From NCBI GenBank assembly GCA_023700805.1, contig JAMPYF010000026.1, positions 1 to 64,000 of the forward strand: a stretch of DNA of 64,000 nucleotides, read 5' to 3'. The first letter of the stretch is position 1, and each line of letters opens with the position of its first letter. The translations under genes were made by a program, and so were the position numbers. Below are positions 52,060 through 60,081 of the stretch, one piece after another. The notes under the pieces were generated by a model. It worked only from the letters and a program-made list of their open reading frames with translations, ran no database searches and had not been told where the DNA came from. Source of the DNA: Sulfuritalea sp. (GTDB taxonomy: Bacteria; Pseudomonadota; Gammaproteobacteria; Burkholderiales; Rhodocyclaceae).

Positions 52060-52143
52060 CGGCTGAAGTGGCGCCTGGGCCGCGGCCGCCCCGGTGCCGG
52101 CCGCCGGTTGCAAGACGGCAGGCGACACGGCACACTCCCGCCG

Positions 52144-53916
52144 ATGACTCAAACCAGCACTGCGCTCCAGGCGAGAGAACCCCGCCGGGTCAAGGCGCGC
52201 TTCATGGCCCCGCTCGCCGTCGTGCTCGTCTTCATCATGGGTGTGTTTGCGGTCGCCGCCCTGTGGGTCGAGGCCGACATCCGCGACCAGGACATTGCCG
52301 AGCGCACCGCGGCCGTGGAAAAGCTGTTCGTGCAGAAGCTGGACAAGGACACCAACCTGATGATCGCGACGATGCGCGCGATGATGACCAACCCGTCCAT
52401 CGAACGGGCCTTCCGCGATCTTGACCGCCCCGCCCTGTCCCGCCAGATGGGCTCCTTGTTCGCCAACCTGCGCGACAAGCACCACATCACCCACCTGTAC
52501 TTCACCGGCCCGGACCTGATCAACCTCTATCGCTTCCATAGCCCCGACGAGTTCGGCGACGAGATCGACCGGCTCACGACGATCAAGGCCAGAGATAGGC
52601 AAGACGCGGAACATGGCCTGGAACTGGGTGCCCTGGGCACGCTGACGCTGCGGCTGGTGATGCCCTGGCGCCGCGACGATCGCGTGATCGGCTACCTGGA
52701 GATCGGCGAAGAGATAGAGCATCTGATCAGCGAGATCAAGGAAGGCCTGGCGGTGGACATGCTGGTGCTGGTCGACAAGCGCAAGGTCTCCTTGCAGCAA
52801 TGGCAGCGCGGCCAGGACCTGATGAAGCGCAAGGGCAACTGGGAGCGTTTTGCCAGCCACGTGGCGCTGGCGCAGACGACGAACCGGCCGCTCGCGGCGC
52901 TGGACGACCGTATCCTGCAGAGCCTGCTCGCCGGCCGCACCGCCGAGGTAGACGACCACGGTCGCTCGCTGCACCTGGCCGCCGTCCCGCTCAAGGATGC
53001 CGGGCAACGCCACATCGGCGACCTGGTCGTGATACGCGACATCACGGCGCTGAAATCCACCTTCAACTGGTCCATCGTGGCGGTCACCACGATCAGCCTG
53101 CTGTCGGCCATCGGCGTGCTCGGCGTGTTCTATCTCGCGCTCGACCGCGTGGAGCGCGATTACCGGCGCCAGCACGACCTCGAACACCAGTTGCTGCGCG
53201 TCAATGCCGAGTACGGGCGCATCCTGCAGCTGGAAAAGCTGTCGGCGCTGGGGACCATGGTCGGCAGCATCGCCCACCAGTTGAACAATCCGCTGGTCGG
53301 CGTGGTCAACCTGGCCCAACTGGCCGAGCGCGGGGTCGACGATCCGGAGCGCACGCGCGAGCTGCTGGGCGAGATCCGCAGCGCCGGCGAAGACTGCCGC
53401 AGCTTCGTCAAGCGCATGCTGGCATTTTCCAAGGTGTCCAGTTTCGAGAGCAAGCCGACGCCGATCGCCGCGCTGATCGAGGACACGGTCCTGCTGTTTC
53501 GCCAGACCGAGACCCGGCACCTGCCGGTCGAGGTAAAGTTGCCGGACCAGGCGGTGGTGCTCTCGGTCGATCCGATCCTGCTGCGCCACGCCTTGTTCAA
53601 CCTGCTGGTCAATGCGGCCCAGGCCACGAGCAACGACAGCGCCATCGTCATCAGCCTGGAGCGCGACGTCGACCCGGCACGGGGAGCGCCCGGCTGGTCG
53701 CTGGCGGTCAGCGATCGCGGCCGCGGCATGCCGCAGGAGGTGATGGAAAAGATCTTCGTGCCCTTCTACACGACGCGCAGCGACGGCACCGGCCTGGGCC
53801 TGCCGGTGGTGCAGCACGTCGCGCTGCTGCATGGGGGGCAGGTCAACGTCAGCAGCGAGCCGGGGCATGGCACGCGAATTGCGATTTGGTTACCAGATTC
53901 CTTGTCCGATGCCTAG
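52144..53916 (+). CDS. sensor histidine kinase with dCache-like periplasmic domain
   Basis: The protein has 590 residues. Membrane helix 1 is at about 22-44, a periplasmic double-Cache-like sensor at about 45-300 (IERAFRDLDRPALSRQMGSLFANL, HITHLYFTGPDLINLYRFHSP, VMPWRRDDRVIGYLEIGEEI) and helix 2 at about 310-335. The dimerisation domain carries the phospho-His in SIAHQLNNPLVGV. A HATPase domain follows (FNLLVNAAQA, DRGRGMP, GTGLGLPVV). Such Cache domains bind small organic acids or similar ligands. It overlaps the next regulator gene by eight bases. Confidence 0.9.
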   Translation: MTQTSTALQAREPRRVKARFMAPLAVVLVFIMGVFAVAALWVEADIRDQDIAERTAAVEKLFVQKLDKDTNLMIATMRAMMTNPSIERAFRDLDRPALSRQMGSLFANLRDKHHITHLYFTGPDLINLYRFHSPDEFGDEIDRLTTIKARDRQDAEHGLELGALGTLTLRLVMPWRRDDRVIGYLEIGEEIEHLISEIKEGLAVDMLVLVDKRKVSLQQWQRGQDLMKRKGNWERFASHVALAQTTNRPLAALDDRILQSLLAGRTAEVDDHGRSLHLAAVPLKDAGQRHIGDLVVIRDITALKSTFNWSIVAVTTISLLSAIGVLGVFYLALDRVERDYRRQHDLEHQLLRVNAEYGRILQLEKLSALGTMVGSIAHQLNNPLVGVVNLAQLAERGVDDPERTRELLGEIRSAGEDCRSFVKRMLAFSKVSSFESKPTPIAALIEDTVLLFRQTETRHLPVEVKLPDQAVVLSVDPILLRHALFNLLVNAAQATSNDSAIVISLERDVDPARGAPGWSLAVSDRGRGMPQEVMEKIFVPFYTTRSDGTGLGLPVVQHVALLHGGQVNVSSEPGHGTRIAIWLPDSLSDA

Positions 53917-55336
53917 CCGACCGCCCCGCCGCCCGAGAACAAGCCCCGCGCCGCCCGACATGCTGCCCAAAATCCTCGTGGTCGACGACGATCGCCACAC
54001 GCGCATCCTGCTCGACCGACTGTTGGCCAAGACGGCGCTGGTGAGCCTGGCGACCGATGGCGCCGAAGCGCGCCGCTTGTTCGCGGCCGGGGATTTCAAC
54101 CTGGTGCTGATGGATCAGCGCCTGCCCGACGACAACGGCATAGATTTGCTGCGCGAGTTTCGCGCCCGCCGGCCCCATCTGGTGAGCATACTGATGACCG
54201 GCTTCGCCGATGTGCGCGACGCCGTGGCGGCGGTACGCGAGGGACTGTTCGATTACCTGACCAAGCCTTTCGAGGACCTCGAAGCGCTCGAAGCCGTGAT
54301 CGGCAAGGCGCTCGAACTCGACCGTGCCTATCGCGAAATCCATGGTCTGCGCGCCCGCCTGTCCGACGCCGCGGACGCGCCGGCCATCATCGGCCAGTCG
54401 CCCGCCATGGAGCGCGTGCTGGGCCAGATACGCCAGGTCGCCGGCCTCGACACCACCGTCTTGCTCGAAGGCGAGAGCGGCACCGGCAAGGATCTCGCCG
54501 CCAAGATGATCCATGCCCTGAGCACGCGCGCCGCGAAGCCGTTTCTTGAAGTGAATTGCGGCGGGCTGCCGGAAACCCTGCTGGAAAGCCTGCTGTTCGG
54601 CTATGAAAAGGGAGCTTTCACGGGAGCGGGCCAGGCCAATGCCGGCTATTTTGAAAAGGCGCACGAGGGCAACCTGTTCCTCGACGAAATCGCCGACATG
54701 AGCCCCAAGTTGCAAAGCAACCTGCTGCGCGTGCTGCAGGACCACAGCGTCACCCGCATCGGCAGCACCCAGCCGCGCCAGGCGGACTTCCGCCTGATCT
54801 GCGCCACCAACCGCCCGCTGCTGGCCGAAGTCAGGGCCGGGCGCTTTCGCGAAGACCTCTACTATCGCATCGCCGTGGTGTCGGTGACCCTGCCGCCGCT
54901 GCGCGAGCGCGCTGGCGACATCGTTTCGCTGGCCACGCACTTTCTCGATGTCTACAGCACGAAGTTCGACAAGATCTGCGGGCCGCTCACGCCGGCCGCC
55001 CTGCAGGCGCTGGAAAGCCAGCGCTGGGAGGGCAATGTGCGCCAGCTCCAGCACTGCATCGAGCGTGCTGTGGCGCTGCATCCGGGCGGCCCGATCGATA
55101 TCCTGCATCTGTTTCCGGCCGACACGCCCGCCACTGGCGCAGCGCGCTGCGACGACGGCGCAACAGTAGCCTCACTCGGCTACCAGGACGCGCGCGCCGA
55201 TTTCGAGCGCGACTATTTCCGCCGTCTGCTCGACGCCGCCGGCGGCAACATATCCGAAGCCGCGCGTCTGGGCGGCATCCCGCGCCAGAATCTGTATGTG
55301 CGCATGAAGCGCTGGGGAATTGTCACTGATAAGTGA
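53909..55336 (+). CDS. NtrC-family sigma-54-dependent response regulator
   Basis: The protein has 475 residues from the ATG overlapping the kinase stop; the ATG at 53960 directly before ILVVDDD is an alternative. The receiver domain has DDD, LMDQRLP (phospho-Asp) and LTKPFE. The AAA+ domain has Walker [15 protein letters not shown] sigma-54 contact loop, Walker [13 protein letters not shown]. The C-terminal Fis helix-turn-helix reads [21 protein letters not shown]. It is followed directly by a sigma-54 promoter and the multihaem cytochrome, which is therefore its most likely target. Confidence 0.93.
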
Positions 55337-55338
55337 CA
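55321..55338. promoter_or_regulatory. candidate enhancer of the multihaem cytochrome gene
   Basis: TGTCACT-GATA-AGTGACA is a perfect 7-bp inverted repeat overlapping the regulator stop codon. A second GTGACA half-site (TTGTGACAA) lies at 55351-55359. The main repeat is about 117 bases before the predicted transcript start. Confidence 0.65.
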
Positions 55339-55420
55339 CACGTCTCGATTTTGTGACAATATCAAGGCGGCATTTCCGAAAATTCCATGCCAATCCAAGG
55401 CAGCCAACGACAATCGTCCT

Positions 55421-55436
55421 TGGTACAAGGATTGCG
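55421..55436 (+). promoter_or_regulatory. sigma-54 promoter of the multihaem cytochrome
   Basis: TGGTACA-AGGA-TTGCG has GG and GC separated by ten bases. The predicted start near 55447 gives a 30-base leader to the ATG. Confidence 0.8.
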
Positions 55437-55476
55437 TGTCCAAGTGCAGTCGAGTTTCACAAATAAGGGGACCATC

Positions 55477-57393
55477 ATGAAAAAAACCATAGTCGGCAGC
55501 CTGCTGGCGCTGGCATCCGCGTTCCTGATTTACGGATGCACCGGCGGCGTCAAGACCTACCCGAACATGCCGGTCAAGGGCGTAGTCGAGGACGGCAGCA
55601 AGGAAACCTTCCTCAAGGTCGCCAATGCGACGGTCTGGCTGATCCCCGCCACAGATGTGGCGACGATGGGCAAGACCGCGATCGAAGTCAAGAAGGATGC
55701 CAAGAACGACGAGCCGCTGGAAGACAGCCTCGCCGCCAACCGCGGTCGTTACCAGAACACCAAGACCAACGACAAGGGCGAATTCAGTTTCGCCGACGTG
55801 CCCGGCGGCAAGTACTTCGTCTATGTCGAGCCTGCCACCAGCAAGTATCTGCCGGGCGGCGACAAGTCGCGCAAGGCGCTGGGCACCGACGAACTCGGCG
55901 CCGCGCCGCTGTTGATCAAGATTTCCGGCAACGTGCCCCCGGATGCCAAATACATCGGCAGTTCGGCCTGCATCGAATGCCACGAAGAGCAGCAGCACTT
56001 CACCAAGACCTTGCACCGGCTGGGCATCACGGTGATCGGCAAGCAAAGCAAGCTGCAGGATTTCTCCCGCTTCCCGGACTTCAACAAGGGCCTGAACAAG
56101 CTCATGGCGGGCACCAAGTTCTATTTCTACGGCTTCGACAAGGGGCGCAGTTTCGACAAGTACCAGATCAGCGAAAAGGCGCCCGCCGATGCGTCATCGG
56201 TCAGCTTCACCGCCACCTTCTACAAGGATGGCGACGGCAAGCTCAAGTTCCGCACCGAGAACGCCCGCGATCCCAGCGACAAGCCGCGCGTCTATCCGGT
56301 GGAACTGACCTATGGCGGCGGCGTGTACAAGCAGCGCTACCTGTTCCGTGTCGGCGCCAACCTGTTCCCCTTCGTCCAGTTCAACCAGGATGGCAATGAC
56401 AGCTATGCCGACCGCGGCCGCAAGCAGTGGCGCGACTACCACGGCGACTGGCTGTACAACGAGGAAACCAAGAAGCTGGCCGATCCGGCGCAAGCCAAGT
56501 CCTTCGACAAGGAATGTGCATCCTGCCATTACAACGGCTACACGCTGACCAAGACCGCGGCGGGCGACTACAAGGCCGGCTCGAACAACGATCGCAATGG
56601 CGAACTGGACATCGACGGCGACGGCAAGCCCAACGAAATCAACATGGGCTGCGAAACCTGCCATGGCCCGGGCTCGGTGCACGACAAGGCGAAGGAGATC
56701 GACATGCCGGCCACCATCGTCAGCCCCAACAAGCTGTCGGCGGAACGCGCCTCGATGATTTGCGGCCAGTGCCACAGCCGGCCGCAGGGCCACCTGAAGA
56801 ACGACCAGCCGGTCAATGCCGCCAACAAGATGATGCTGCCGGGCACCGCGCGCAACGTCTTCCTCAAGGACTACACCACGCGCGAGGACGGAGCCGCGAA
56901 GGACTTCTGGGCCGACGGGCTGCATTCCAAGTCCCACCACCAGCAATACACGGACTTCATCAAGTCGTCCAAGTACCGCAACGGCAACCAGCTGGTCGCC
57001 TGCTCCGACTGCCACGACACGCACGGCAACGGCAAGTTCGCGCACCAGATGAAGGCCGACCCGAAGACCGCGGAATCCTGCACCAGCTGCCACAAGGACA
57101 GCACCGACCTGAAGAAGCACCTTGCGGACAAGTCGAAGTGCACGGTGGATGTGGCCAAGGTCACCTGCTCGGACTGCCACAACACCAAGACCATGCAGAC
57201 CGGCGCCGGCTTCGGCAAGGGTCTGACGGGCAAGGACGGCAAGAACTACTGGCTGAACGACATCACTTCGCACGTCTATGACGTCCCGCGCAAGGACAAC
57301 AAGGGCGTCAAGGGCGTCGCGTCGGGCGCGGCCATGCCTATCCCCTATACCAATCCCTGCGGCGCGGCCTGCCACGACACGAAGAACCTCTAG
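55477..57393 (+). CDS. octahaem c-type cytochrome lipoprotein
   Basis: The protein has 638 residues. A lipoprotein-type signal ends at Cys21 (LIYGC), so the protein is probably anchored to a membrane. Residues about 30-145 look like a carboxypeptidase-regulatory-like beta-sandwich (VKGVVEDG, TNDKGEFSFADVPGGKYFVYVEP). After this come seven CxxCH haem sites (CIECH near 165, CASCH near 347, CETCH, CGQCH, CSDCH, CTSCH, CSDCH) and one CxxxCH (CGAACH) at the very end. A long haem-poor stretch separates the first site from the rest. The set suggests extracytoplasmic electron transfer or a reductase, possibly to metal, sulfur or nitrogen compounds. I do not recognise a named family. Confidence 0.9.
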   Translation: MKKTIVGSLLALASAFLIYGCTGGVKTYPNMPVKGVVEDGSKETFLKVANATVWLIPATDVATMGKTAIEVKKDAKNDEPLEDSLAANRGRYQNTKTNDKGEFSFADVPGGKYFVYVEPATSKYLPGGDKSRKALGTDELGAAPLLIKISGNVPPDAKYIGSSACIECHEEQQHFTKTLHRLGITVIGKQSKLQDFSRFPDFNKGLNKLMAGTKFYFYGFDKGRSFDKYQISEKAPADASSVSFTATFYKDGDGKLKFRTENARDPSDKPRVYPVELTYGGGVYKQRYLFRVGANLFPFVQFNQDGNDSYADRGRKQWRDYHGDWLYNEETKKLADPAQAKSFDKECASCHYNGYTLTKTAAGDYKAGSNNDRNGELDIDGDGKPNEINMGCETCHGPGSVHDKAKEIDMPATIVSPNKLSAERASMICGQCHSRPQGHLKNDQPVNAANKMMLPGTARNVFLKDYTTREDGAAKDFWADGLHSKSHHQQYTDFIKSSKYRNGNQLVACSDCHDTHGNGKFAHQMKADPKTAESCTSCHKDSTDLKKHLADKSKCTVDVAKVTCSDCHNTKTMQTGAGFGKGLTGKDGKNYWLNDITSHVYDVPRKDNKGVKGVASGAAMPIPYTNPCGAACHDTKNL

Positions 57394-57410: not shown

Positions 57411-57443
57411 CAAAGACCGCCGGCATGTCCGGCGGTTTTCTTA
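57411..57443 (+). terminator. intrinsic terminator after the octahaem cytochrome
   Basis: Perfect 8-bp stem ACCGCCGG / CCGGCGGT with loop CATGT, followed by TTTCTTA. It lies about 25 bases after the stop codon. Confidence 0.88.
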
Positions 57444-57486: not shown

Positions 57487-58140
57487 TCAGCGCACCGGCG
57501 CGATGCCCCACTCGGCGACGCCTTCCGGCAGCCGCAGCGCGTCGTAGCCCTTCTTGCGCAGCAGATCCACGGCATCGCGCGCCATCAGGCAGTAAGGCCC
57601 GCGACAATAGGCGACGACGGTCTTGCCCTTGGGCAGTTCGGCGAGACGCTGCTTGAGTTCGTCGAGCGGAATCGAGCGGGCAAAGGGCAGGTGCGCGGCG
57701 AGATACTCGTCTGCCGGCCTCACGTCGAGCACCACCACCTCGCCCTTGCGCGCCAGCCGGACCAGGCCGTCGCGATCCTGCGGCGCCAGTTCCTTCGGAT
57801 GGCTGACCATCTGCTCTATGACCAGGCGCAACTCCACCAGACGATCTTCCGCAAGCGAATGAATCGCCACCCAAAAATCGGCGACCTGGCGATTGGCGAT
57901 CCGGTAGATCACGTACTTGCCCTGCTTCTCGGTCTCGACCAGATTCGCCGCGCGCAGTTCGCGCAAGTGCGCGCTGGCGAGTTTCATGCTGATGGCCGCT
58001 TCGCGCGCCAGGGCATCGACGGTTTTTTCGCCCTGGCACAGCAGTTCGATCAGTTCCAGCCGCTTCGGACTGCTTGCCGCCTTGCCGATGCGGGCCACCT
58101 GTTCGTAGAGCAGGTCCTTGATCCGTCGCGGGTCATTCAT
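57487..58140 (-). CDS. ArsR-type regulator fused to a rhodanese domain (first copy)
   Basis: The protein has 217 residues. The winged helix is at about 8-95 (ASSPKRLELIELLCQGEKTVDALAREAAISMKLASAHLRELRAANLVE) and a rhodanese domain at about 120-215 with the active loop AYCRGPYCLM. The fusion is widespread and thought to sense persulfide or related sulfur species through its cysteines, repressing sulfide-handling genes. The HTH part has one Cys (LLCQG). It diverges from the DsrE gene across an AT-rich 151-base gap that probably holds both promoters. The start at 58140 is preferred; an upstream frame reads through this gap. Confidence 0.88.
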   Translation of the reverse strand: MNDPRRIKDLLYEQVARIGKAASSPKRLELIELLCQGEKTVDALAREAAISMKLASAHLRELRAANLVETEKQGKYVIYRIANRQVADFWVAIHSLAEDRLVELRLVIEQMVSHPKELAPQDRDGLVRLARKGEVVVLDVRPADEYLAAHLPFARSIPLDELKQRLAELPKGKTVVAYCRGPYCLMARDAVDLLRKKGYDALRLPEGVAEWGIAPVR

Positions 58141-58201
58141 GATGTTCAATCTATTATTTCGCCGATTGTCTGTCAATTTCCATGAATATTGCTTGATGTT
58201 A

Positions 58202-58230
58202 TTGACCTGCCTCAAATAGCTTATTCTAGT
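58202..58230 (+). promoter_or_regulatory. possible sigma-70 promoter of the DsrE gene
   Basis: TTGACC, 17 bases, TCTAGT, in an AT-rich gap between divergent genes. The nearby direct repeat TATTC-TAG-TATTC could bind the ArsR-rhodanese protein. Assignment is tentative. Confidence 0.4.
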
Positions 58231-58291
58231 ATTCATTAGATTGTTAGCCGACAGGGCAGCAACGGCCCGTCATCGAAATCGGAGGCACGAC

Positions 58292-59421: not shown

Positions 59422-60081
59422 TCAAGCCTCCACGGGAAGTCCTGCTGCCTTCCATTCCGGGAAACCATCGACCAGGCGACGCGCCTTGTAGCCTTTCTCG
59501 CGCAGCAAGGCCACGGCATCGACCGAAAGCAGGCAGTAGGGCCCGCGGCAGTAGGCGATGACCTCGCGCCCCTTGGGCAGGCGGCGCAGGTGGCTGCTGA
59601 GGGCATCGGAAGCGATGTTGATCGCGCCGGGGACGTGTCCGGCCGCGTATTCCTCGGGCGGGCGCACGTCGAGCACGGTGACCAGGCCCTGGCTTACGCG
59701 TTCGAGCAGTTCGCCGGCCGGCACCGGTTCGAGATCGTCGCGCGCCGTGATGTAGGTGCGCAGCAGTTGCGAGACTTCGGCCAGGCGCGATTCGGCGACG
59801 GTGGACAGCGCGCCGAACAGGTCGACCACGTCCGGTCCCGCGACTTCGTAATACACCCGCACTCCCTCTTTGCGCGCCCGCACCAGGCCGGCCTGACGCA
59901 GTTCCTGCAAATGCTTCGAGGCGTTGGCGACGGACAGGTGGGTCATGCCCGCCAGTTCGTCGACGCTGCGCGGCCCCTGTGCCACGAATTCCAGCAGTTC
60001 CAACCGGTTGGCGTGGCCGAGGGCCTTGGCGACGCGCGCCAATTGCGCATAAATGTCCTGCTTGAAGTTTCCGGTTGACAT
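59422..60081 (-). CDS. ArsR-type regulator fused to a rhodanese domain (second copy)
   Basis: The protein has 219 residues. The winged helix (LGHANRLELLEFVAQGPRSVDELAGMTHLSVANASKHLQELRQAGLVR) lacks Cys. The rhodanese domain carries the same active loop AYCRGPYCLL as the first copy, so sensing most likely uses the rhodanese Cys pair. It is a clear paralogue of the protein at 57487-58140. An inverted repeat lies 18 bases before its start and before the divergent sterol-desaturase operon, so both are probably repressed by it. Confidence 0.9.
   Translation of the reverse strand: MSTGNFKQDIYAQLARVAKALGHANRLELLEFVAQGPRSVDELAGMTHLSVANASKHLQELRQAGLVRARKEGVRVYYEVAGPDVVDLFGALSTVAESRLAEVSQLLRTYITARDDLEPVPAGELLERVSQGLVTVLDVRPPEEYAAGHVPGAINIASDALSSHLRRLPKGREVIAYCRGPYCLLSVDAVALLREKGYKARRLVDGFPEWKAAGLPVEA

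Follow-up and report, generated by a model that had tools for sequence, protein, structure and literature searches.

A probable sigma-54 switch carried by its own regulator gene ahead of an octahaem lipoprotein cytochrome in Sulfuritalea

Background

A 64,000-nucleotide stretch of DNA from Sulfuritalea sp. (GenBank assembly GCA_023700805.1, contig JAMPYF010000026.1, positions 1 to 64,000 of the forward strand; the window) carries genes for a Cache-domain histidine kinase and an NtrC-type regulator, followed by the gene of a multihaem lipoprotein cytochrome that we call OCTA. This locus raises the question of whether the regulator and the DNA ahead of OCTA form a dedicated sigma-54 switch and, if so, what kind of cytochrome is placed under its control. 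An earlier note on the same DNA had described a self-contained sigma-54 switch for an octahaem lipoprotein, possibly an uncharacterised respiratory or extracellular electron-transfer system.

Here, we describe a comparative analysis of the regulatory DNA, the cytochrome and their relatives in other genomes. A pair of operator boxes that overlaps the stop codon of the regulator gene accompanies the regulator from genome to genome, and OCTA has sequence similarity to the terminal reductase OcwA that extends beyond the haem motifs. These observations suggest, with a probability of roughly 0.5, that the locus is a portable sense-and-respire cassette in which OCTA acts as a signal-induced terminal reductase fed from quinol. 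Genomes and loci are cited below by our own G and L identifiers.

Results

A tandem operator overlaps the regulator stop codon

The elements of the locus follow one another on the forward strand:

52108-53916, +: Cache-domain histidine kinase, 602 amino acids (aa); dCache_3, HisKA and HATPase_c domains (Pfam).
53960-55336, +: NtrC-type sigma-54 activator (the regulator); receiver, AAA+ and Fis-type helix-turn-helix (HTH) domains; stop codon TGA at 55334-55336.
55321-55338, +: operator box 1, TGTCACTGATAAGTGACA, a perfect inverted repeat that covers the last codons and the stop codon of the regulator gene.
55341-55358, +: operator box 2, CGTCTCGATTTTGTGACA, degenerate, 20 base pairs (bp) from box 1, start to start.
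55421-55436, +: sigma-54 (-24/-12) promoter, TGGTACAAGGATTGCG, 9/11 consensus positions, located 100 bp past box 1, with the ATG 56 bp further on.
55465-55470, +: likely ribosome-binding site, AAGGGG, by direct sequence reading.
55477-57393, +: OCTA, the octahaem lipoprotein cytochrome, of 638 aa; eight haem sites, Cys21 in the signal and a suggested N-terminal immunoglobulin (Ig)/transthyretin-like domain.
57413-57439, +: rho-independent terminator-like hairpin with a T-rich tail; -18.1 kcal/mol, z-score -3.2, equalled by 0 of 200 shuffles.

The order given in the earlier note (kinase, regulator with GAFTGA, repeat, sigma-54 promoter, cytochrome, terminator) is present as described, and the TGTCACT-GATA-AGTGACA repeat reported there proves to be the first of two boxes with the pattern TGTCAC-N6-GTGACA. 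A consensus terminator scan of the same region did not list the hairpin at 57413-57439.

Tandem boxes were found in all 21 OCTA loci that have an adjacent regulator of at least 54% identity and in none of the 18 other loci. Forty-two loci were given to this comparison and 39 were counted, as L114 and L115 are without OCTA and L116 is without its upstream DNA; genome G013 is represented by L115, and its OCTA locus, L035, has boxes and stands outside the 39. The two boxes of the 21 cassette loci lie 20 bp apart, with one to six mismatches over 24 fixed positions, and in 20 of the 21 a -24/-12 site of at least 8/11 is located 90-189 bp past box 1, the exception being L044 with its promoter 287 bp from its boxes. 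About 0.6% of 4000 random 400-bp segments pass the same tandem test, drawn from a pool that itself includes true sites. The 18 operator-less loci, some of which have short upstream DNA, include two Nitrospirota loci with a 39%-identical regulator.

The exact box occurs at two sites in the 4.16-Mb genome of the window and the reversed control at none; with one mismatch allowed there are four box sites versus two control sites, so a single box is specific only when exact. The promoter alone is less exclusive than the boxes: good -24/-12 sites also occur box-free, and the contig-cut locus L041 has a 10/11 promoter near -54 without boxes.

The position of the operator is also conserved. When the best pair was sought from 120 bp before to 200 bp after the stop codon, excluding regulators below 50% identity, box 1 was found to start 5-13 bp ahead of the stop in 27 of 28 regulator genes; in L044 it begins 19 bp after the stop. 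The stop codon, whether TGA, TAG or TAA, shifts inside the box while the box persists, and the simplest reading of this pattern is DNA-level selection on the operator. As the operator lies inside the regulator gene, the binding site travels with the regulator. The proposal of a sigma-54 switch is thus well supported by comparison.

The regulator has a receiver (Response_reg), a Sigma54_activat domain (E value 1e-66) with GAFTGA intact at 54611-54628, and a Fis-type HTH (HTH_8), as in NtrC-type sigma-54 activators. It reached no NCBIfam cut-off among the best 25 of 111 matches (top match AtoC, 396 versus 714 bits), and neither did the kinase among the 25 matches listed for it. The kinase has a double Cache sensor (dCache_3, E 3e-18) and the H-box AHQLNNP, with the His box at 53272; its listed start is TTG, ATG at 52144 being a possible alternative, and its orthologues are present across the cassette loci. 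An RpoN gene is encoded in the same Sulfuritalea genome.

The same switch stands before other redox genes

A degenerate form of the tandem pattern was searched for in 33 chosen genomes, among them ten members of the genus, eight without OCTA and two with OCTA but no adjacent regulator. It was found at 27 distinct sites in 24 of the 33, and the reversed control at none. OCTA cassettes account for 21 of these sites and a CbcL site for one; of the other five, one is chance-like, and four follow a regulator orthologue and precede other genes. The pattern under-counts, since known cassette carriers, G013 and G015, are among the nine genomes without a site. The tandem-box match at L196:6031 (G738:C125) has no adjoining regulator or redox gene and is probably due to chance.

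In genomes without OCTA, the cassette is placed ahead of an EB_dh protein (G003), a heptahaem cytochrome (G008), or a heptahaem cytochrome with cytochrome b and EB_dh (G018). Rhodoferax G736 has one cassette ahead of an EB_dh lipoprotein and TauE, and an OCTA cassette as well. A second, diverged cassette of G008 (L193:13555-17531) combines a 58%-identical regulator and weaker stop-codon boxes with EB_dh and a NapC/NirT-type cytochrome. The kinases of G003, G008 and G018 share the sensor domain of the window kinase (56-76% identity over 285 residues versus 49-93% among OCTA cassettes); a different kinase sensor is present in L050, which is an OCTA cassette, and in L195. Tentatively, the kinase, the regulator and the stop-codon operator may constitute a mobile respiratory switch that takes its binding site along and can be placed before different terminal redox proteins: OCTA, a heptahaem cytochrome with cytochrome b and EB_dh, or EB_dh by itself.

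Similar operators precede a CbcL-like quinol oxidoreductase

Among 31 genomes of the genus, the exact box occurs at nine sites, compared with three for the reversed control. A regulator gene ends at eight of the nine (the G015 contig stops at this point); the one left over belongs to the genome of the window and is on another contig, ahead of a monohaem cytochrome c gene and a CbcL-like gene that runs off its contig. In G016, G011 and G027, boxes together with an 11/11 -24/-12 site at about 91 bp precede the same pair of genes. Altogether, the box arrangement was seen upstream of four of the 28 CbcL genes examined (own genome, G016, G011 and G027), and two more upstreams are cut by contig ends. 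In G002, G026 and G024 the monohaem cytochrome c and CbcL genes directly follow OCTA, the G026 case being a second OCTA copy that is contig-cut. Across 729,819 bp of fetched loci, counted with their overlaps and with L123 twice, tandem sites above threshold occur only at cassettes or CbcL sites. The aldehyde oxidoreductase, molybdate-transport and FccB neighbours of OCTA found no support as regulon members: each was seen in one lineage, and none has an above-threshold tandem box in these 729,819 bp.

The CbcL-like partner (L067:7490-9418) has nine CxxCH motifs and a HydC/FdnI-type b membrane half, with partial matches to TIGR01583 and PF01292 (29.7 against a cut-off of 30.1 for the latter). 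This agrees with the make-up of CbcL given in PMC6295460, nine CxxCH-type c haems and a b561/FdnI-type membrane half. A CbcL-like gene is present in 13 of 16 OCTA genomes and in 11 of 15 others of the genus; because this co-occurrence shows no strong correlation, the link between OCTA and CbcL rests on shared operators and operon order. It is this link to a CbcL-like quinol oxidoreductase that makes a respiratory role the best reading for OCTA.

The term self-contained applies only in part, as similar boxes stand before monohaem c-CbcL genes in four Sulfuritalea-group genomes and the cassette stands before other redox genes at four further sites.

Other genes adjoin the CbcL-like genes. A porin frame with a weak MtrB/PioB-type match is found less than 4 kb from a second CbcL-like gene of the window's genome (G000:C26:51174-56824, 70% identical). 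A cluster for a molybdenum-bis(pyranopterin guanine dinucleotide) reductase is situated just upstream of the monohaem c-CbcL genes in L067:401-6344 and L112:4078-10045; its catalytic subunit is nearest PhsA (251-269 bits versus a cut-off of 694), and it also includes an Fe-S subunit, a TorD-like chaperone and a 550-aa polyferredoxin.

OCTA is an octahaem lipoprotein with a predicted open haem

Three sites of the cytochrome are of particular concern:

56515-56529, +: haem 2 site CASCH (residues 347-351), the predicted open-coordination active-site haem; position and order match haem 2 of OcwA.
56935-56940, +: His487-His488, the pair predicted to lie distally over haem 2; invariant among the 29 sequences of alignment A2 and aligned with the OcwA pair.
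57358-57375, +: haem 8 site CGAACH (CxxxCH), the betaproteobacterial form of the site.

The OCTA gene has its better start at 55477 and stops at 57393. The protein begins with MKKTIVGSLLALASAFLIYGC, a lipoprotein-type signal, the sequence reading MKKTIVGSLLALASAFLIYGC-T. A residue other than Asp at lipobox position +2 is the sorting rule for outer-membrane lipoproteins, and OCTA may be located there; the lipobox Cys is missing from several homologues.

The haem motifs are, in order, CIECH, CASCH, CETCH, CGQCH, CSDCH, CTSCH, CSDCH and CGAACH, which bears out the seven CxxCH and one CxxxCH site reported earlier. The CxxxCH form is found in full-length betaproteobacterial homologues except L014, whose end is not matched, and the distant L065, L072 and L073. 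As these three same-order homologues and those of Nitrospirota have a canonical CxxCH at this place, the terminal CxxxCH is a genuine eighth haem site.

A carboxypeptidase-regulatory-like domain, named in the earlier note, is matched weakly by Pfam (19.7 bits against a cut-off of 32.3), and NOMO_3rd reaches 26.4 bits against a cut-off of 27. The predicted fold suggests an Ig/transthyretin-like N-terminal domain; Foldseek matches to it are weak (E 0.007 and above), PA1324 (probability 0.99, E 0.02) being one example among the better matches listed.

Sequence profiles relate the haem core to OcwA

In a profile search of solved structures, OcwA (6i5b) came first, with E 1.9e-10 for alignment A1 and 7.4e-13 for the deeper alignment A2. 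The similarity extends beyond the CxxCH motifs: 2000 motif-preserving decoys never reached the OcwA score, whether or not haem Cys and His were masked, and with these residues masked the OcwA fragment scored 17.6 bits versus at most 5.1 for the decoys. We took 6i5b to be OcwA because its residue numbers fit with an offset of 29 and one occurrence of the code was counted in PMC6703420.

As reported there, haems 2 and 5 of OcwA are penta-coordinate, each lying under a His-His pair, 281/282 and 380/381 (PMC6703420). These pairs correspond to H252/H253 and H351/H352 of the 6i5b chain, and OCTA H487/H488 align with H252/H253. A His-His pair over an open haem 2 is predicted for OCTA on this basis. 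Nine non-motif His residues are invariant in A2 (180, 322, 402, 483, 487, 488, 516, 548 and 599); with the pair set aside, seven are left, enough for the seven other haems. The second His-His site, that of OcwA haem 5, is not matched, a single His548 lying near the region aligned with H380/H381. In the OCTA model, the stretch that separates haem 1 from haem 2 is rich in strands.

The structure prediction and fold search recommended in the earlier note were carried out. The model from A1 was poor, with a predicted local distance difference test (pLDDT) score of 56; that from A2 reached pLDDT 76 and a predicted template modelling score of 0.76, its C terminus being weak. No Foldseek match reached E <=0.001, and it was the sequence profile search that found OcwA, so the case for kinship is made by sequence profiles and the positions of ligands and not by fold. 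The view that OCTA is not any named reductase stands at the family level, as no Pfam, NCBIfam or PDB match spans the whole protein, and needs qualifying for its haem core, which is distantly related to a terminal reductase. Membership in the MtrC/OmcA group of outer-membrane decahaem cytochromes found no support: PF22113 gave no match at E <=0.01, and the haem sites number eight, not ten. Among the open-licence papers listed we found no name for the OCTA family and no paper pairing an octahaem cytochrome, or any multihaem cytochrome, with a carboxypeptidase regulatory-like domain.

These features bear on whether OCTA could be an electron wire without a catalytic haem, as its lipoprotein signal and its best structural relative, a cell-surface reductase, might suggest. 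In G026 a decahaem MtrA-like gene and a gene for an MtrB/PioB porin (PF11854) come after the contig-cut second OCTA, monohaem c and CbcL genes, the CbcL cluster of G016 is likewise followed by an MtrA-like gene and a PF11854 porin gene, and the window's genome encodes several PF11854 porins. However, no PF11854 match was obtained in the complete genome G002, which has two OCTA copies, or in the drafts G004, G011, G024 and G027, the lipobox Cys is not universal, and a mere wire would have no need of a His-His pair conserved over haem 2. We consider a pure wire rather unlikely. The Mtr conduit was rejected as an obligatory partner on the same porin result; MtrAB may serve extracellular transfer in G026 and G016 and cannot do so generally. 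Of the two kinds of system named in the earlier note, the respiratory one is favoured by the CbcL link. No observation made here points to organic acids as the signal.

OCTA is shared by Betaproteobacteria and Nitrospirota in varied surroundings

There is one OCTA gene in the window's own genome. Among its nearest relatives, 21 of 61 genomes (own included) match OCTA, five only weakly (E 5e-7 to 2e-4); the 16 that remain after removal of these five carry OCTA or a fragment and all belong to the window's genus. An order-level sample gave matches in 7 of 399 genomes, own included (E 1e-60), and the phylum of the L053 genome, Nitrospirota by record name, in 15 of 295 (E 1e-50). A scan of genome contigs gave 27 OCTA loci in records named Sulfuritalea, Rhodoferax, Polaromonas, Thiobacillus, Hydrogenophilales, Nitrospirae and others; a search of plasmids gave no match. 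Judged from these homologues, OCTA is an unnamed family common to Betaproteobacteria and Nitrospirota.

The two OCTA copies of G002 (L070:5957-7873 and L071:3894-5810) are 17 kb apart, both 81.5% identical to that of the window. Between them lie an ArrA-like/ArrB-like/TorD set and a CbcL-like gene, another CbcL-like gene follows the second copy, and the second copy alone retains regulator and operator. Arsenate reductase was rejected as a name for this molybdenum enzyme (967 bits versus a cut-off of 1600).

The surroundings of OCTA give discordant hints of sulfur or metal oxyanions, with FccB, ChrA/ChrB, TauE, Sulf_transp, rhodanese, DsrE and molybdenum enzymes all occurring. The molybdenum enzymes beside CbcL fall below the cut-offs of the specific families listed, and the one beside OCTA in L054 is a formate dehydrogenase alpha subunit.

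Sulfur-linked neighbours raise the prospect of electron flow in reverse, from an inorganic donor such as reduced sulfur or Fe(II) through OCTA, monohaem c and CbcL to quinone. Host names (Sulfuritalea, Thiobacillus, Hydrogenophilales) fit this direction. So do rhodanese and DsrE, which the window itself encodes, an FccB-type flavoprotein that follows OCTA in L033, and the presence of Sulf_transp (L156) or TauE (L149, L073) at other loci, and PMC6295460 reports the CbcL homologues MtoC and MtrH from metal oxidisers. The sulfur-linked neighbours nevertheless differ among loci, the OcwA-like active-site design points to reduction, and the molybdenum enzyme adjoining the CbcL clusters of G000 (the window's genome) and G016 is nearest the thiosulfate reductase PhsA, far below cut-off; reverse flow appears quite unlikely.

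Other neighbours would suit a detoxification or stress reductase, for chromate or sulfite for example, that conserves no energy. Pfam identified both ChrB and ChrA close to OCTA in L043 and ChrA as its neighbour in L150, and ChrA-like frames were recognised by eye in L051 and L151; PadR and TauE occur in L149 and TauE in L073. TauE also lies close to the cassettes of L193 (by eye) and L195 (by Pfam), whose outputs are different. We regard this as very unlikely, given that none of ChrA/ChrB, PadR and TauE was seen beside OCTA in the regulator-bearing betaproteobacterial loci listed (by eye, partly scanned) and that the CbcL linkage suggests coupling to the quinone pool.

Several further neighbours were recorded. 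In the window, 57487-58236 (- strand) and 59422-60081 (- strand) encode two proteins with an ArsR-type HTH and rhodanese (the second by resemblance), with DsrE-like and methyltransferase genes between them; in L030 and L120 the second ArsR-rhodanese-type protein is about 45% identical to the first. Operator-less OCTA genes of two phyla (L043, L051, L149, L150 and L073) lie beside PadR, ChrA/ChrB or TauE-type exporters, assigned by Pfam in all but L051, which was read by eye. In the Rhodoferax-type loci L034, L036, L037, L038, L040 and L045, OCTA is followed by genes for a ferredoxin, a protein of the aldehyde:ferredoxin-oxidoreductase family and a PadH-like flavoprotein, and molybdate-type ATP-binding cassette transport genes lie upstream (families from single representatives). 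Other kinase-regulator pairs, each adjoining a gene that by eye resembles a periplasmic solute-binding protein, are found beside OCTA or molybdenum-enzyme clusters (L053:3746-6279, L112:1021-3653 and L046:4568-6893).

Discussion

The conserved pairing of the trans-acting regulator with its cis-acting operator suggests how the cassette would operate. The Cache kinase would detect a signal and phosphorylate the regulator, which would bind the two boxes and activate sigma-54 RNA polymerase about 100 bp downstream, inducing the lipoprotein OCTA with its eight haems in a string. All but one of these haems are probably bis-His wires, and haem 2 is probably open beneath the His-His pair, like its counterpart in OcwA. 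Induction by this regulator probably extends, within the Sulfuritalea group, to the CbcL-like quinol-cytochrome oxidoreductase and the monohaem cytochrome. Electrons would then pass from quinol to the CbcL-like protein, monohaem c and OCTA, and an acceptor, presumably an inorganic oxyanion or a metal, would be reduced at haem 2. OCTA is, in this scheme, probably a terminal respiratory reductase.

Several observations weigh against this scheme. On the regulatory side, OCTA can be controlled otherwise, because 16 of the 18 operator-less loci have no regulator detected directly upstream (L012 and L041 have little upstream DNA). One G002 copy (L010, the same gene as L070) keeps a 10/11 promoter near -54 and no operator, and Nitrospirota L051 and L053, with their own regulator, have 9/11 sites at -127 and -130 and no such boxes. 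The CbcL part of the regulon is uneven: 24 of 28 CbcL upstreams are without the arrangement or have chance-like matches only, and a looser criterion (one box with at most two mismatches, promoter of at least 8) is satisfied by 4.3% of 1400-bp segments taken at random. The CbcL side of the window's own genome has a poor promoter (GGGTATAAGAATTGCT at 101 bp, 7/11) and a second box with four mismatches, and the CbcL-side boxes of G027 are degenerate, with three and two mismatches. On the protein side, there is no sign of the C-terminal three-helix bundle of the NrfA family, as no long helices follow haem 7, where pLDDT is mostly below 50, and the Foldseek search of the A2 model, empty at the threshold given above, had no haem core among the 50 matches listed. 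Finally, OCTA neighbours vary widely, and none points to one substrate.

With an inducer circuit defined, and with an active site and a quinol partner predicted, the substrate of an unnamed multihaem family becomes findable. Should the homologous sensors of the kinases all respond to a single signal, the unrelated outputs of the cassette would be interchangeable enzymes for the same acceptor, OCTA would be the first member of a new family of terminal reductases found in Betaproteobacteria and Nitrospirota, and the cassette would show bacteria swapping terminal oxidoreductases under constant sensory input. The stop-codon operator provides a searchable tag for more outputs of the same signal.

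Comparison with known systems

PMC6703420 groups OcwA with the NrfA/cytochrome c554/MccA superfamily and describes a beta-sheet domain common to OcwA and MccA. The OCTA profile matches NrfA 3ubr with E 1e-5 (A1) and 5e-4 (A2) and cytochrome c554 (1bvb) with E 0.6 and 0.16; no MccA chain is among the structure matches listed. On the side of difference, no family cut-off is reached, and no CxxCK site or three-helix bundle was seen. Other matches of A2 are local only: 9yuq chain N (E 1.7e-6, 37 positions, 502-538) and 6qvm, "Multiheme cytochrome cf" (E 1e-4, 321-539).

OcwA, the nonahaem cell-surface terminal reductase of Thermincola potens, shares with OCTA the order of haems 1-4, a beta-sheet domain between haems 1 and 2, the motifs CHGPGxxH and CGQCHSR, and the SHHxQY His-His motif over haem 2. 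OCTA differs in that it is a Gram-negative lipoprotein with one haem fewer (eight against nine), an additional N-terminal Ig-like domain and a single aligned His-His site; nor is a C-terminal three-helix bundle predicted, in a model that is poor at that end. OCTA may work like OcwA, although we do not class it as OcwA. Its putatively co-regulated partner has the same make-up as CbcL of Geobacter sulfurreducens, an inner-membrane quinol oxidase.

The switch itself resembles those of NtrC-family activators with paired palindromic upstream sites, with which it shares the receiver, the AAA+ domain with GAFTGA, the Fis HTH, the tandem operator and the -24/-12 promoter. The regulator has no named equivalog among the 25 matches listed, and it departs from those systems in that the operator is built into the regulator's own stop codon and travels with it.

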